Position numbers and translations under genes: made by a program. DNA of 57,090 nucleotides from a virus. The notes under the pieces were generated by a model. It was not told the origin of the DNA and ran no database searches. It saw nothing but the letters and a program-made list of their open reading frames with translations. Where the stretch lies: positions 1 to 57,090 of the IMG/VR virus record IMGVR_UViG_3300046694_000629. One strand, given 5' to 3'. Position 1 is the stretch's first letter. Each line of letters starts with the position of its first letter. Of the stretch, positions 4,009 to 55,452 are shown in pieces.

Positions 4009-4082
4009 GGGACAACCTCGTTTGGTTTAGCAAAATCAGATAGGCTTGGTTAATTTTAATTGGGCAATAAATGGGGCGCTTA

Positions 4083-4865
4083 ATGTCTAATAATGATTCC
4101 ATGTACCATTACACGGACATATCCGCGGTCGCCGCAATTATCAAAAGCAAGAAACTGTGGCTGACAAATATTGGGTTTCTGAATGACTCTCAAGAGTTTC
4201 AGGAAGGACTGGCGGTGGTATCAAAGCGTGCTGATGAGTGGGTCTTTGATGCTGAGCCTGAGATAGAGCGATTCAAGGCAGGATTGGCTTATACTCGGGG
4301 TGTGTTGCAAGCATATAAAGAATTCGCACACAGCAACAACTTGTACACTTGTTCTTTTATTAGGGCTAGGAATTTATTAAGTCAATGGAGAGCTTACGGG
4401 AATTTCGCTATTGAGTTTTCAAGGTCTGAGCTGGAGAAGAAGTACGCTCTCTATGAATGTATTTATGATTCTGTAGATAAAAAATATCATTCAGAGGGGC
4501 TGATAAGGAGTTTGGTGGATAAGTCTTCCGTTTATATGACGTCAAAACTAGATACTCCGACAGATCATTTGCAGGCGTTTACTGCTGGGATAAGTATTAT
4601 TAAAAATAATCATTTTGAAGCCGAGCACGAAGTCCGCATTATTGGTACAAGCGACTATGAGCGTTCAGGTGTGCTTCACCGCGCACGCGGTGATTACTTA
4701 ATTCCATATATGGAAATCGATTTTCCGATTGAGAGCGTATTAGCGATCCATGTTGGTCCAGTCTCAAATCAAGAACTCGCAGGAAAGTCTTTGGAATCTC
4801 TTCTCTACGCCTGCGGTTTGCGCAATTTGCCTATCGTTTTTTCCGACATTCCCTATCGGTCATAA
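4083..4865 (+). CDS. DUF2971-family protein, accessory gene
   Basis: A protein of about 260 residues. It opens with MYHYTDISAVAAIIKSKKLW, then LTNIGFLNDSQEF, CSFI and LLSQWRAYG-NFAIEF, the signature order of DUF2971. The YHYT opening resembles the start of ADP-ribosyltransferase-fold families, but no biochemical role is established from this sequence. The gene is clearly AT-richer than its neighbours and flanked by leftward genes, suggesting a recently acquired lysogenic-conversion or anti-phage gene. I use the ATG at 4083; in-frame ATGs at 4071 and 4101 are alternatives, and none has a strong ribosome-binding site. Confidence 0.75.
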   Translation: MSNNDSMYHYTDISAVAAIIKSKKLWLTNIGFLNDSQEFQEGLAVVSKRADEWVFDAEPEIERFKAGLAYTRGVLQAYKEFAHSNNLYTCSFIRARNLLSQWRAYGNFAIEFSRSELEKKYALYECIYDSVDKKYHSEGLIRSLVDKSSVYMTSKLDTPTDHLQAFTAGISIIKNNHFEAEHEVRIIGTSDYERSGVLHRARGDYLIPYMEIDFPIESVLAIHVGPVSNQELAGKSLESLLYACGLRNLPIVFSDIPYRS

Positions 4866-16894: not shown

Positions 16895-17395
16895 TTAAGG
16901 TCTGCAAGATCGCAAAAAATTTCTAATCGCTGCAGACAATCGATACCTGAGGGGGCCTCGATACAATTTACTGAACTCATCCTCCAAACAGTCTTTCAAC
17001 TGATCGCAGGCGAAGGTTAAACCGTCAATCAAATCTGACTCAGGCGGTTGCTGTATAAAACGGTTGGTTTCGAAGTTATCAAGTGTTATCGATTTTTTCA
17101 AATCGATAAATCTTAATTTTAGAACAGGGCTCTCGAAGCGCAAATATCTGATTCTCGCGCTCAAGCGAGTTATTTTAAGCGTAATAGACTTTTCTAATGG
17201 AAGGCTTCTTTCTAGCGAGCCGTGGTAGCGCGTCGCATCTTCTTCCAGTTGTTCGATGCTTTCAATAATGTCATTTAAAGAGGAGCGTAACTCTTTACGC
17301 TCCTCTCTTTTGTTATTTTGCCAATTTACTATTATCCAGCCTGTTATTACGGTAATAAGAGTTATTAGGCTAGTGTATTTGGTCAGAAGGTCCAA
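16895..17395 (-). CDS. Single-pass membrane protein of the rex-position module
   Basis: A 166-residue protein. Residues about 8-25 (SLITLITVITGWIIVNW) form one membrane segment, followed by a basic stretch (NNKREERKELR) and a cytoplasmic helical region with coiled-coil features (DIIESIEQLEEDATR). The ATG at 17395 lies 26 bases inside the end of the DUF4325 gene, so translation is coupled. Base composition is AT-rich. By analogy with lambda RexB it could be the membrane-acting part of a module whose other members are signalling proteins, but there is no similarity to RexB that I can see. Confidence 0.72.
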   Translation of the reverse strand: MDLLTKYTSLITLITVITGWIIVNWQNNKREERKELRSSLNDIIESIEQLEEDATRYHGSLERSLPLEKSITLKITRLSARIRYLRFESPVLKLRFIDLKKSITLDNFETNRFIQQPPESDLIDGLTFACDQLKDCLEDEFSKLYRGPLRYRLSAAIRNFLRSCRP

Positions 17396-17696
17396 TGCTT
17401 TCCCTTATGTAAGACTGGATTTCCGTTATTAAGCTTGTGTCTTTCGAAATTAGGCTGATTCTGGAAAGAACTTTTTCCGCGGGGTAGCCAAGTCTTACTA
17501 AGCCACCAAACGCCTCTTCCAGAAACGACGATCCATACCCACGCGCGCCATCGAGATCCACAACCAGAATCTCATCGCACGTCAGTGCGGGCTCGAGATA
17601 TTTTTCCCGGAATAGCTCGCCACTGTAGGGGCCATCTTCTTTGTATCTCCCGGCAGGAAATTTTGTAAAATCTCTTGCAAGACTGATGCTTTTCAT
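17370..17696 (-). CDS. DUF4325 STAS-like protein
   Basis: A 108-residue protein. The core DEILVVDLDGARGYGSSFLE, then EAFGGLVRLGYPAEKVLSR and a final helix match the STAS-like DUF4325 family: strand, a conserved S-S-F turn, helix. STAS domains act as phosphorylatable or nucleotide-sensing partners of GHKL kinases in partner-switching systems (SpoIIAA/RsbV type). The serine pair at about 56-57 is in the usual modification position. Its ATG overlaps the stop of the upstream kinase-like gene as ATGA, so the two proteins are made together. Confidence 0.78.
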   Translation of the reverse strand: MKSISLARDFTKFPAGRYKEDGPYSGELFREKYLEPALTCDEILVVDLDGARGYGSSFLEEAFGGLVRLGYPAEKVLSRISLISKDTSLITEIQSYIRESIGPSDQIH

Positions 17697-18727
17697 GATG
17701 CAGACCTCAACGGCAAAGGCATTTGCCAGTAAATCACAGTGCCCATAATTGAATCACCGAACTCTCCCGAGCGCTGCTTACCTGATTCCATAGAGTACCA
17801 TCCTTTGTTACTCAATATTAGGGCCTTTCCGCCATCGCAGGAGCTTATCGTTTCGATAATTTGTCGCAATCCTTTGCCCCGATGCTGCTTTCTGGTGCGT
17901 GTTTGGCTGTTCCTTACGGCGCCCTCGATCTGGCGGCCCTCGGTCAAATTCAGTCTATCCATGAAATGCCAAAGCCTTGGTCTGGTGTGAGGCAGCGATG
18001 CAGGGATTCCTACCCCTAGATCACAAAATACTACTGAAAGTTTCCCGTCTTTTTCCTGGGAGAACATCCACCAAGGACGGTAGTCTGGATCGGTCCTTAC
18101 TCCATCGCCTCGCTGGTCGATGTACGCATGCTGGTGGGCATTCGTCATCGCCTCCGTTATGCCAGTGTAGAGCTCGGTTTGCAGCGAATCTGTAATAAGA
18201 CCGTCGTAATACCCTAAGATTTCATCGTACTTAGCACCGATCGCACCTTGGCCTCGTGCGCTACGCCAGTTAACAACATCCCCATCAAGGCATTTGGCAT
18301 TATTTTTAGTCTTAAGCAGTTTTGACAGGCCAATTTGTTGCAAAACCTGAGCGGCTTTATTGCTTTTCGGTAGTGAGCATTTAATGCGTAAGTCAGCTAC
18401 ATTTTCTATCAGTCTGGTAATTTCGGCGCACAACAATAGAGTTCCCCCAGACACAAATCTTCTTGTCTCTGTAAAGTCAATCCATATTTTTCGTGTGCCT
18501 TGTTGTGCGGAGGTTCGTAGCTTCTCTAGGAACGCTAAGGTCGTTGCTCGAGATATCCGTTTATTAATGTCGAACTCAAGCGGAGCTTTTAGAATCCTAA
18601 ATCGCGGTATTGGAACAGCTGAGGTCTTTTTATGTTTTATATTTTTAATTTTAGAAAGCTCGTCGCGTGCACGTCGAGCCAGCCAATAAATCATGTGATT
18701 ATTTTGCTTTCTCAAGCTCTGCGCCAT
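17693..18727 (-). CDS. STAS-like + GHKL ATPase fusion protein
   Basis: A 344-residue protein with two parts. Residues about 43-138 look like a STAS-type domain (KIWIDFTETRRFVSGGTLLL). Residues about 180-335 are a GHKL (histidine-kinase/HSP90-type) ATPase: N box Glu192 and Asn196 (GITEAMTNAHQH), G1 box Asp236-Leu-Gly-Val-Gly240, and G2-type box HRGKGL at 282-287. I see no dimerisation/phosphoacceptor His domain or receiver, so an anti-sigma-factor-like kinase is closer than a two-component sensor. It starts 35 bases after the repressor stop, in the direction of PRM, so it should be expressed in the lysogen. AT-rich. The ATG at 18727 has GGG very close; an ATG at 18694 is an alternative. Confidence 0.8.
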   Translation of the reverse strand: MAQSLRKQNNHMIYWLARRARDELSKIKNIKHKKTSAVPIPRFRILKAPLEFDINKRISRATTLAFLEKLRTSAQQGTRKIWIDFTETRRFVSGGTLLLCAEITRLIENVADLRIKCSLPKSNKAAQVLQQIGLSKLLKTKNNAKCLDGDVVNWRSARGQGAIGAKYDEILGYYDGLITDSLQTELYTGITEAMTNAHQHAYIDQRGDGVRTDPDYRPWWMFSQEKDGKLSVVFCDLGVGIPASLPHTRPRLWHFMDRLNLTEGRQIEGAVRNSQTRTRKQHRGKGLRQIIETISSCDGGKALILSNKGWYSMESGKQRSGEFGDSIMGTVIYWQMPLPLRSAS

Positions 18728-18762: not shown

Positions 18763-19551
18763 TTACCTAGAATACATCGCCCACCAGAAAACATGCCCCA
18801 AAATCGAAATCTGCTGCTCCTGGATCTGCTGGAACGTGTAGTCCTCATCCGGGTGCTCGTCCCGGTTGAAGCTGCGCAGGCGAAGGCCGGTAGGGATGCG
18901 GTAGACCTGCTTCACGCGAAGCTGCCCGTTGTGGTTGATAGCGTACATCTCGCCGTCGACGATATCGCTCAGGGAGTTTTTCCCCACGTTCACGCCTACC
19001 GTGGCGCCGTCGCGCAGCACAGGCATCATGCTGTTGCCGCCTACCTTCACGCACTTCGCGTTGCTGAACTGAACGCCATTGTGGCGAAGATCCTTCTTGT
19101 TGAATCGCAGGCGTGAGTTGGCGCTTTCTTCAATCGCAAACCTGCCAGATCCGGCTGCGAGTTCAACTTCATGGAGGAAGGGGACGTAGACCTCATCGTC
19201 ATCGAGCGGGGTTTCGTCATCCCAGGTCTCGATATTTCCTAATTTTACGCTTGGCTGGATGCGCTGCTGCTGCACGCTGGCAACAGTAGATAGCAATCGG
19301 GAGCTCACTTCGCTTGCATCGAAGTTGAGCGCCTTAGCAAGCTTCAGCAGCGCTTCCACATTTAGCGGCACTTTCCCGGTTGCGTATTGGCTGAATGCGC
19401 TTTGCCCGGACCATCCGCACGCCTCGGCAACATCCGCCTGCGTCAGGCTGCGCCCGGCAGCTTTTGCAGCTGATTTCCGCTGTTCGTAGATAGCTTTGAG
19501 CCTAGTGCTCTCGGCGACTTCTTCGGGGGTGAGGGGGCGACGTATTTTCAT
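18763..19551 (-). CDS. cI: S24-family CI-like repressor
   Basis: A 262-residue repressor. Residues about 35-75 form the helix-turn-helix (LTQADVAEACGWSGQSAFSQ, YATGKVPLNVEALLKLAKAL). The C-terminal S24 domain shows the Ala133-Gly134 cleavage site (ELAAGSGRF), Ser174 (GGNSMMPVL) and Lys214 (GQLRVKQVYR), so RecA-stimulated self-cleavage is expected and the prophage should be SOS-inducible. I use the ATG at 19551: it lacks a ribosome-binding site, but the predicted PRM start falls at or next to it, as in the leaderless lambda cI message. A longer frame to 19653 would run through the operators. Confidence 0.92.
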   Translation of the reverse strand: MKIRRPLTPEEVAESTRLKAIYEQRKSAAKAAGRSLTQADVAEACGWSGQSAFSQYATGKVPLNVEALLKLAKALNFDASEVSSRLLSTVASVQQQRIQPSVKLGNIETWDDETPLDDDEVYVPFLHEVELAAGSGRFAIEESANSRLRFNKKDLRHNGVQFSNAKCVKVGGNSMMPVLRDGATVGVNVGKNSLSDIVDGEMYAINHNGQLRVKQVYRIPTGLRLRSFNRDEHPDEDYTFQQIQEQQISILGHVFWWAMYSR

Positions 19552-19555
19552 ACGA

Positions 19556-19637
19556 ATAAGAGTATTAGCAGAGCTGATATCCAAGCAAACAGCGCTGCTA
19601 GTATTTTGTTGCTGATAAAAAGCAGCGCTGCTACTAT
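19556..19637. promoter_or_regulatory. OR region: three operators with PRM and PR
   Basis: Three copies of a 14-bp dyad close to TAGCAGCGCTGCTA: 19566-19579 (TAGCAGAGCTGATA), 19587-19600 (AAACAGCGCTGCTA) and 19620-19633 (AAGCAGCGCTGCTA). Rightward PR: TTGCTG 19609-19614, 17-base spacer containing most of the third site, TACTAT 19632-19637. Leftward PRM: TTGGAT 19584-19579, 17-base spacer containing the first site, TCTTAT 19561-19556. The order copies lambda OR3-OR2-OR1. Confidence 0.75.
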
Positions 19638-19667
19638 CCATGGCAGATATCAAGCCGTGGAAATTCC

Positions 19668-54771: not shown

Positions 54772-55452
54772 TCAATCGACTGGCTTGATCAGGTCCGGAC
54801 CCTGGTTCCGGACATTCCCCACTGCTCGGTCAACCTTGAACCACTCGAAAACCTCTGTCGGCTCACCCTGGTGCAGCACCATCTGTTCGGCGCGATCTTT
54901 CGGTGTGGCCGGATCCAACCATTCCCGTGCGAGTTCAGGCGATAACGCCACCGGCCGCCGGTCGTGGATATCAACCATTCCGCCGGCACTGTCGGCGGTG
55001 ATGATCACAAAGCCATCATGCTCGCTTGGGTCATGCTCGTTATTCGGGTATTGGCCGATAGCAGCGCAGAGAATGGGTGACTGATCACGGTGACGGATTA
55101 GGTAAGGCTGCTTCTTAGGGCCTCCCTCATCAACCCACTCGAACCAATTGTTGATTGCGATGATCGCCCGGTTCGGCCAGATTGCACGGAAGAAGGGGCC
55201 GTGCGCCACTTTTTCGACCCTGGCGTTGATCGGCGCCGCGCGATCCTTTGCCCAATGCGGGCGCCACCCCCAACGCACCATATCGGCGTGGAGGAACTCG
55301 CCCTCTTGGTGAAACAGCGCGAGCTGAGACGTAGGTGCCGCGTTGTAGCGTTCTAGCGGTTGTTCATTGACAGTGCTGATCAAAGCGTTCGGCATGCTGA
55401 GCGCCTCCACGAAGTCATGAATGCCGCTGTATTGGGTAAGTCGTCCGCACAT
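54772..55452 (-). CDS. SRAP (YedK/HMCES) DNA-repair protein
   Basis: A 226-residue SOS-response-associated protein. Cys2 after the initiator Met is the catalytic residue that forms a covalent link with abasic sites in single-stranded DNA; Asn76 (PINARVE), Glu105 (NNWFEW) and His163 (DIHDRRP) complete the family's active site. The usual H-D-R-M-P is H-D-R-R-P here. It is the second gene of an operon behind a LexA-type box. In a phage it could protect replication forks during SOS induction. Confidence 0.92.
   Translation of the reverse strand: MCGRLTQYSGIHDFVEALSMPNALISTVNEQPLERYNAAPTSQLALFHQEGEFLHADMVRWGWRPHWAKDRAAPINARVEKVAHGPFFRAIWPNRAIIAINNWFEWVDEGGPKKQPYLIRHRDQSPILCAAIGQYPNNEHDPSEHDGFVIITADSAGGMVDIHDRRPVALSPELAREWLDPATPKDRAEQMVLHQGEPTEVFEWFKVDRAVGNVRNQGPDLIKPVD

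Follow-up and report, generated by a model that had tools for sequence, protein, structure and literature searches.

A three-gene module behind the cI-type repressor of a Pseudomonas-type temperate phage is apparently a widespread, undescribed relative of a published bacterial defence system, and we consider it probable that this module serves abortive infection and is built on a kinase-controlled switch. The phage is represented by a 57,090-base IMG/VR virus record (hereafter the window, to which positions refer unless another locus is named), whose nearest annotated DNA relatives are the Pseudomonas phages Medea1 and phiAH14a and which carries an integrase at its left end. The three genes, here called K, S and M, encode a kinase with a STAS-like and a GHKL domain, a small STAS-like switch protein and a membrane protein that is the putative effector.

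Gene layout and composition

The module and the repressor upstream of it are arranged as follows:

18763..19653, minus strand: cI-type repressor, HTH and S24 peptidase (Pfam: Peptidase_S24 at 1e-18, HTH_31)
17693..18727, minus strand: gene K, 344 aa, ATG start; basic N-terminal helix, STAS-like domain and GHKL kinase domain
17370..17696, minus strand: gene S, 108 aa; DUF4325 STAS-like switch protein
16895..17395, minus strand: gene M, 166 aa, TTG start inside S; putative effector

An earlier note on this DNA, made from its letters, had placed three co-directional genes downstream of the repressor, and all three open reading frames are present on the minus strand behind cI, with a gap of 35 bp between cI and K. 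The junctions are likewise as described there: the stop of K and the start of S overlap in ATGA, and M begins inside S, its TTG start being preceded by AAGGGAAAG, a plausible ribosome-binding site. The trio had also been called AT-richer than the phage core, and its GC content is indeed 0.468 for K, 0.468 for S and 0.403 for M, as compared to 0.565 for the window and 0.55 for cI. No terminator-like site was found on the minus strand in the 35 bp separating cI from K, and across the module region both sigma-70-like and terminator-like sites occurred at chance level only.

Two genes elsewhere in the window are worth recording: an AT-rich gene at 4071..4865 (GC about 0.42) with a weak, below-cut-off match to DUF2971, which may be further cargo, and, towards the right end (54772..55452), a gene for SRAP, the SOS response associated peptidase.

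K, S and M recur as a unit

We drew 80 genomic and 80 viral loci carrying the conserved S motif. With duplicates removed, and among loci with room upstream, K adjoined S in 76 of 78 genomic and in all 61 viral loci; a third gene of 100–240 aa began at the stop of S in 76/77 genomic and 66/67 viral loci, and no fusion of S to M was seen in this S-based set. Because these loci had been picked by S, we carried out a second search by K alone, which returned strong matches (E below 1e-10) in 25 of 399 Pseudomonas genomes, or 6%, a share that is perhaps slightly high because in five of the 25 the trio had been found beforehand. S is encoded in every one of these 25 genomes, in one case within a fusion, and M can be recognised in 24; at the M position of the remaining genome lies a gene for a small protein whose N-terminus is hydrophobic. 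Across the class Gammaproteobacteria, about 10 of 369 genomes had a strong K match. The earlier note had made its reading depend on homologues occurring together, and their co-occurrence is near-obligate, with S present in every K-positive Pseudomonas genome.

The K-S-M order is repeated in well over 100 independent loci, more than chance, and is found in several phyla, on chromosomes, plasmids and prophages (phyla beyond Pseudomonadota being read from record titles, with the exception of a Leptospira plasmid). Annotated examples include Marinobacter phage AS1, a prophage-like plasmid of Pasteurella, and plasmids of Vibrio, Acinetobacter and Leptospira; the gene table of Francisella phage KIRK lists a 293-aa protein, a 112-aa DUF4325 protein and a 125-aa membrane protein behind cI (PMC7924643). 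Save for that gene list, no published description of the trio was found in a search that had bioRxiv and most subscription journals outside its scope; PADLOC (2023) returned nothing for K, S or M, and NCBIfam nothing meaningful.

A few loci show other arrangements of the same parts. L203 (683–2061) lacks the STAS domain of K and has M behind a fusion of a GHKL domain to DUF4325; this fusion supports the coupling of K to S, not the rest of the model set out below. L206 (1090–2439) encodes a single 449-aa protein with a STAS-like region, a GHKL domain and DUF4325, and has no recognisable M gene. In L216 (118–1986) and L214 (565–2553), the gene after those for a kinase and a DUF4325 protein encodes a membrane protein that differs from M and is more hydrophobic; these may be further effector types that use the same signalling core.

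K combines a STAS-like domain with an intact GHKL kinase domain

K matches phrog_3364 at 2.6e-45, and its match to Pfam HATPase_c_2 is weak. The STAS half of the protein is not visible to Pfam, but the fusion of STAS-like and GHKL domains that had been proposed from the sequence is borne out by an AlphaFold model (pLDDT 91.8, with 110 sequences), in which a basic N-terminal helix, a STAS-type domain with the order beta-alpha-beta-alpha-beta-alpha and a GHKL domain follow one another. The features of K are:

18587..18727, minus strand: K residues 1–47, basic N-terminal extension (net charge +11; helix 10–32 in the model)
18335..18598, minus strand: K residues 44–131, STAS-like domain (from model secondary structure; spanned by the profile alignment to a VapK-like kinase)
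18140..18154, minus strand: K N box, E192 to N196 (both residues invariant in 110 relatives)
18008..18022, minus strand: K G1 box DxGxG, D236–G240 (from conservation across 110 relatives)
17870..17881, minus strand: K G2 motif RGKG, R283–G286 (conserved)

E192, N196, W219, D236, G238 and G286 are invariant in 110 of 110 K sequences. The kinase motifs are intact, and the GHKL residues named in the earlier note (Glu192/Asn196, Asp236–Gly240 and the G2 motif) had been assigned correctly. The N-terminus of the family is strongly basic: the net charge over roughly 50 aa has a median of +14, and the charge per residue is above that of the rest of K in 99% of relatives, which suggests contact with nucleic acid or with the membrane.

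The closest solved fold to K is the anti-sigma kinase SpoIIAB (Foldseek, 1.8e-6), with RsbV/RsbW entries ranking lower; by fold search and sequence profile, SpoIIAB and RsbW are the Ser kinases closest to K among solved structures. K and S have in common with SpoIIAB/SpoIIAA and RsbW/RsbV the GHKL Ser/Thr kinase fold and a STAS protein with a Ser pair, here the putative substrate, but K has an added STAS domain. Moreover, SpoIIAB and RsbW control a sigma factor, whereas no sigma factor gene was noticed beside the trio in annotated examples and the presumed partner is a membrane protein.

S carries a conserved pair of candidate phosphoacceptors

S matches DUF4325 at 5.9e-13, above the Pfam cut-off, in agreement with its first description as a STAS-like protein of this family. 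It is a bare STAS domain of 108 aa without a DNA-binding domain, and contains a pair of adjacent serines:

17526..17531, minus strand: S codons 56–57 (Ser-Ser), candidate phosphoacceptors (from profile alignment to VapS and conservation)

The pair is conserved: position 56 is Ser or Thr in 159/170 relatives, and position 57 is Ser in 168/170. In the profile alignment S56 falls on residue 66 of the VapS chain, which corresponds to S48 if an 18-residue purification-tag offset is assumed. Either S56 or S57 may be the phosphoacceptor. In ten relatives position 56 is occupied by Pro, Arg or Ile, a point against the favoured reading, so S57 may be the site of phosphorylation or the site may differ.

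Relationship to VapKSC and CapK/CapS

Two systems that couple a STAS and GHKL kinase to a STAS protein, CapK/CapS and VapKSC, have been described (Chambers et al., EMBO J, June 2026; PMC13373217). CapK is an HTH-STAS-GHKL kinase that is activated by ssDNA and phosphorylates a Ser in the STAS protein CapS, and the two control transcription after DNA damage; VapS is the STAS antitoxin of the RNase VapC, which a Ser48 phosphomimic frees; and the VapKSC operon, described as a toxin-antitoxin locus whose third gene is the toxin, protects against phage Bas42 (PMC13373217).

The solved VapS chain (9z7o) matches DUF4325 at 2.5e-14, which places it in the same Pfam family as S. A class-level genome search with the K profile returned a VapKSC-like operon (L221, 538–2316) encoding a STAS and GHKL kinase, a DUF4325 protein (3.4e-13) and a PIN protein (1.1e-11), and K aligns with the VapK-like kinase of this operon across both STAS and GHKL domains (hhalign 97%). 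Judged by family and profile comparison, K is thus homologous to a VapK-like kinase and S to VapS. Where the earlier note had inferred a kinase/STAS pair that senses infection, the pair is indeed related to a published phage-defence pair; by analogy with CapK, however, the trigger is likely to be nucleic acid or DNA damage acting on K, and not necessarily infection as such.

VapKSC and K-S-M share a STAS and GHKL kinase, a DUF4325 STAS protein and an effector in the same order, as well as a conserved Ser/Thr in the STAS protein and a frequent location near other defence genes. Because gene order and signalling core are alike, M stands in the place of VapC and is the presumed effector. The two systems differ in that the VapKSC effector is a PIN RNase and the third gene of K-S-M encodes a single-pass membrane helical protein, and in that the N-terminus of K, unlike that of the VapKSC kinase, forms a basic helix; sequence similarity between the kinases is remote. 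We rejected the identification of K-S-M as VapKSC itself because M is not a nuclease, having no Pfam match above cut-off and an all-helical model. By these comparisons, K-S-M is a sister system of VapKSC.

An aromatic residue contacts ssDNA in both published kinases, W68 in CapK and F54 in VapK (PMC13373217). No counterpart was located in K by alignment to the L221 kinase, a point against the abortive-infection reading; with that kinase as proxy, the K column aligned to the candidate Trp is rich in Lys and Arg, not aromatic. Relatives of the published VapS were found in neither plasmids nor viral contigs, and relatives of the L221 VapS-like protein were not found in viral contigs. With CapK/CapS, K-S-M shares a STAS and GHKL kinase paired with a STAS protein, in K-S-M the putative substrate, but CapS has a winged helix and represses transcription, whereas S is a STAS domain only, and the N-terminal HTH of CapK contrasts with the single basic helix (residues 10–32) that precedes the STAS domain in the K model.

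M is a predicted membrane protein with a cytosolic helical domain

M is predicted to consist of a single-pass membrane helix and a cytosolic helical domain. Its model is all-helical (pLDDT 94.6), with an N-terminal helix at residues 2–59 followed by four helices, and two of its segments are delimited:

17321..17377, minus strand: M residues 7–25, predicted membrane segment (from hydropathy and charge over 113 relatives)
17072..17098, minus strand: M residues 100–108, conserved R/KxxxTxxxF motif (T104 in 104 of 113 relatives)

The N-terminal segment agrees with the one-pass membrane protein that had been recognised at first sight, although its hydropathy is moderate (1.47), which counts against the favoured reading. 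After it comes a basic stretch, KREERKELR, which appears as RExRKExR across 113 relatives; the positive-inside rule gives an N-out, C-in orientation in 102 of the 113. Because this basic stretch follows the hydrophobic segment, the C-terminal body of M should be cytosolic, and therefore reachable by cytosolic S. T104 is the most conserved point of the protein. A 12-bp inverted repeat (17279..17306) lies within the M gene, in the codons of the basic stretch after the membrane helix.

Searches of Pfam, PDB sequences and PDB structures gave no family or significant fold match for M, only helical proteins at chance level. The lack of a match to a known toxin counts against an explanation in which M is the effector, and so does the finding that the length of the S tail does not covary with the length of M (rho 0.02). 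M could alternatively be a sensor and membrane anchor for an envelope event (adsorption, injection or holin action) that drives K and S, the output falling on a factor of the host or prophage that the operon does not encode. Such a role would suit its membrane helix and long helical domain, sensor domains of histidine kinases and chemoreceptors are among its best, though weak, fold matches (none significant), and partner-switching modules such as RsbW and SpoIIAB often act on outside partners. We nevertheless regard it as unlikely, as no recurrent fourth gene was seen, as the occurrence of the same trio in many hosts, on chromosomes as well as plasmids, speaks against an external partner peculiar to one host, and as the third gene at the same position in VapKSC is a toxin (PMC13373217).

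Genomic niche and defence neighbourhood

The trio lies behind cI on the same strand, the position of lambda rexAB that the earlier note had emphasised, but it is not tied to this slot: a CI-like gene stands directly upstream of K in 4/72 genomic and 20/68 viral loci, and the trio also occurs on plasmids. We accordingly rejected the idea that the module is a property of the cI slot; with so few loci having CI upstream, the place of rex in lambda is one of several niches for the trio. The likeness to RexAB of lambda and P. putida extends to the proposed scheme, in which a sensor and a membrane protein bring about abortive infection (PMC12894663). K-S-M differs in having three genes and a kinase switch; RexB of P. 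putida has four predicted membrane helices (PMC12894663). Neither a Pfam match to RexA nor homology to RexB was seen in K, S or M.

In loci with a related CI (about 57–98% identical to that of the window), the genes downstream of CI vary from phage to phage. Their 93 non-redundant slot products include RexA (1.3e-53), which occupies the equivalent slot in one kin phage, as well as AbiGi, MqsA/MqsR, HipA, YafO and Imm_superinfect; others match RmrA, AriA of PARIS, PtuA (Septu) and PADLOC candidate systems. The cI-downstream slot of these kin phages thus carries defence cargo, toxin-antitoxin genes among it, and its varied contents include a different K-S-M allele: in L252, CI is 97% identical to that of the window, whereas K is 35% and S 48% identical and M has no BLAST match. 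L265, whose CI is 90% identical, gives a similar picture. Divergent K-S-M genes under a near-identical CI indicate that different alleles entered the same slot. Across L234–L312 the slot is hypervariable, and next to known exclusion genes it holds numerous small operons that are uncharacterised, which makes it a good place to seek new defence systems.

The flanks of genomic K-S-M copies are similarly rich in defence genes. PADLOC matches comprised 214 families over 127 flank proteins as compared to 14 families over 109 control proteins, the control being arbitrary Pseudomonas regions only, not taxon-matched, and the family counts being inflated by single proteins that match many models. Type I restriction genes lie near, including five type I methyltransferases; integrases and S24 repressors also occur in these flanks, and SRAP genes occur there four times.

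The trio is found on small plasmids near other toxin-antitoxin pairs, and VapKSC has itself been described as a toxin-antitoxin locus (PMC13373217), so K-S-M might be a selfish maintenance module that stabilises mobile elements by addiction and protects against phage incidentally. We find this distinctly unlikely: a dedicated kinase is unusual for simple addiction and implies a regulated trigger, and exclusion genes abound in the slot of kin phages. A lysogeny switch without a role in defence, in which K and S respond to DNA damage by tuning the activity of cI or the induction of the prophage and M plays an accessory part, would fit the adjoining cI and the control of transcription after DNA damage by the related CapK/CapS (PMC13373217), but is very improbable given how few loci have a CI-like gene directly upstream, the copies on non-phage plasmids, the lack of a DNA-binding domain in S and the swapping of K-S-M alleles under near-identical CI.

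Proposed mechanism

Several lines of evidence argue for abortive infection: firstly, S shares its Pfam family with VapS, a proven antitoxin in an anti-phage operon; secondly, K aligns with a VapK-like kinase over both STAS and GHKL domains; thirdly, the GHKL residues are invariant in 110 relatives, the Ser pair is conserved and co-occurrence of the three genes is near-obligate; fourthly, related-CI slots and genomic flanks are rich in defence genes; and fifthly, the charge pattern of M leaves its body within reach of cytosolic S.

In the scheme we propose, K-S-M would be carried by the prophage as lysogen-expressed cargo, presumably co-transcribed with cI, and in the quiet lysogen M would be held inactive by bound S. 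Infection or DNA damage would activate K, probably through a nucleic-acid signal received by its basic N-terminus and STAS domain. Activated K would phosphorylate S at the Ser56/Ser57 pair, and phosphorylated S would release M. M, fixed in the inner membrane and exposing its helical domain to the cytosol, would then act as a toxin that arrests or permeabilises the cell, such that the incoming phage is not propagated and phage resistance results. The residues on which this scheme can be tested are defined: N196 of K, Ser56/Ser57 of S, and the membrane helix and T104 of M.

We give an even chance to the broader proposition that K-S-M is an unnamed, widespread type of defence whose killer protein acts on the membrane under the direct control of an anti-sigma-type kinase/STAS switch, this being the first switch of its kind known to have a membrane effector, and that the VapK/VapS core is a general chassis for different effectors. 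If this is true, an uncharacterised three-gene immune module would be present in about 6% of the Pseudomonas genomes sampled and in many other bacteria, M would constitute an effector family without known fold relatives, and the kinase/STAS switch published in 2026 would become a modular signalling core with exchangeable effectors.
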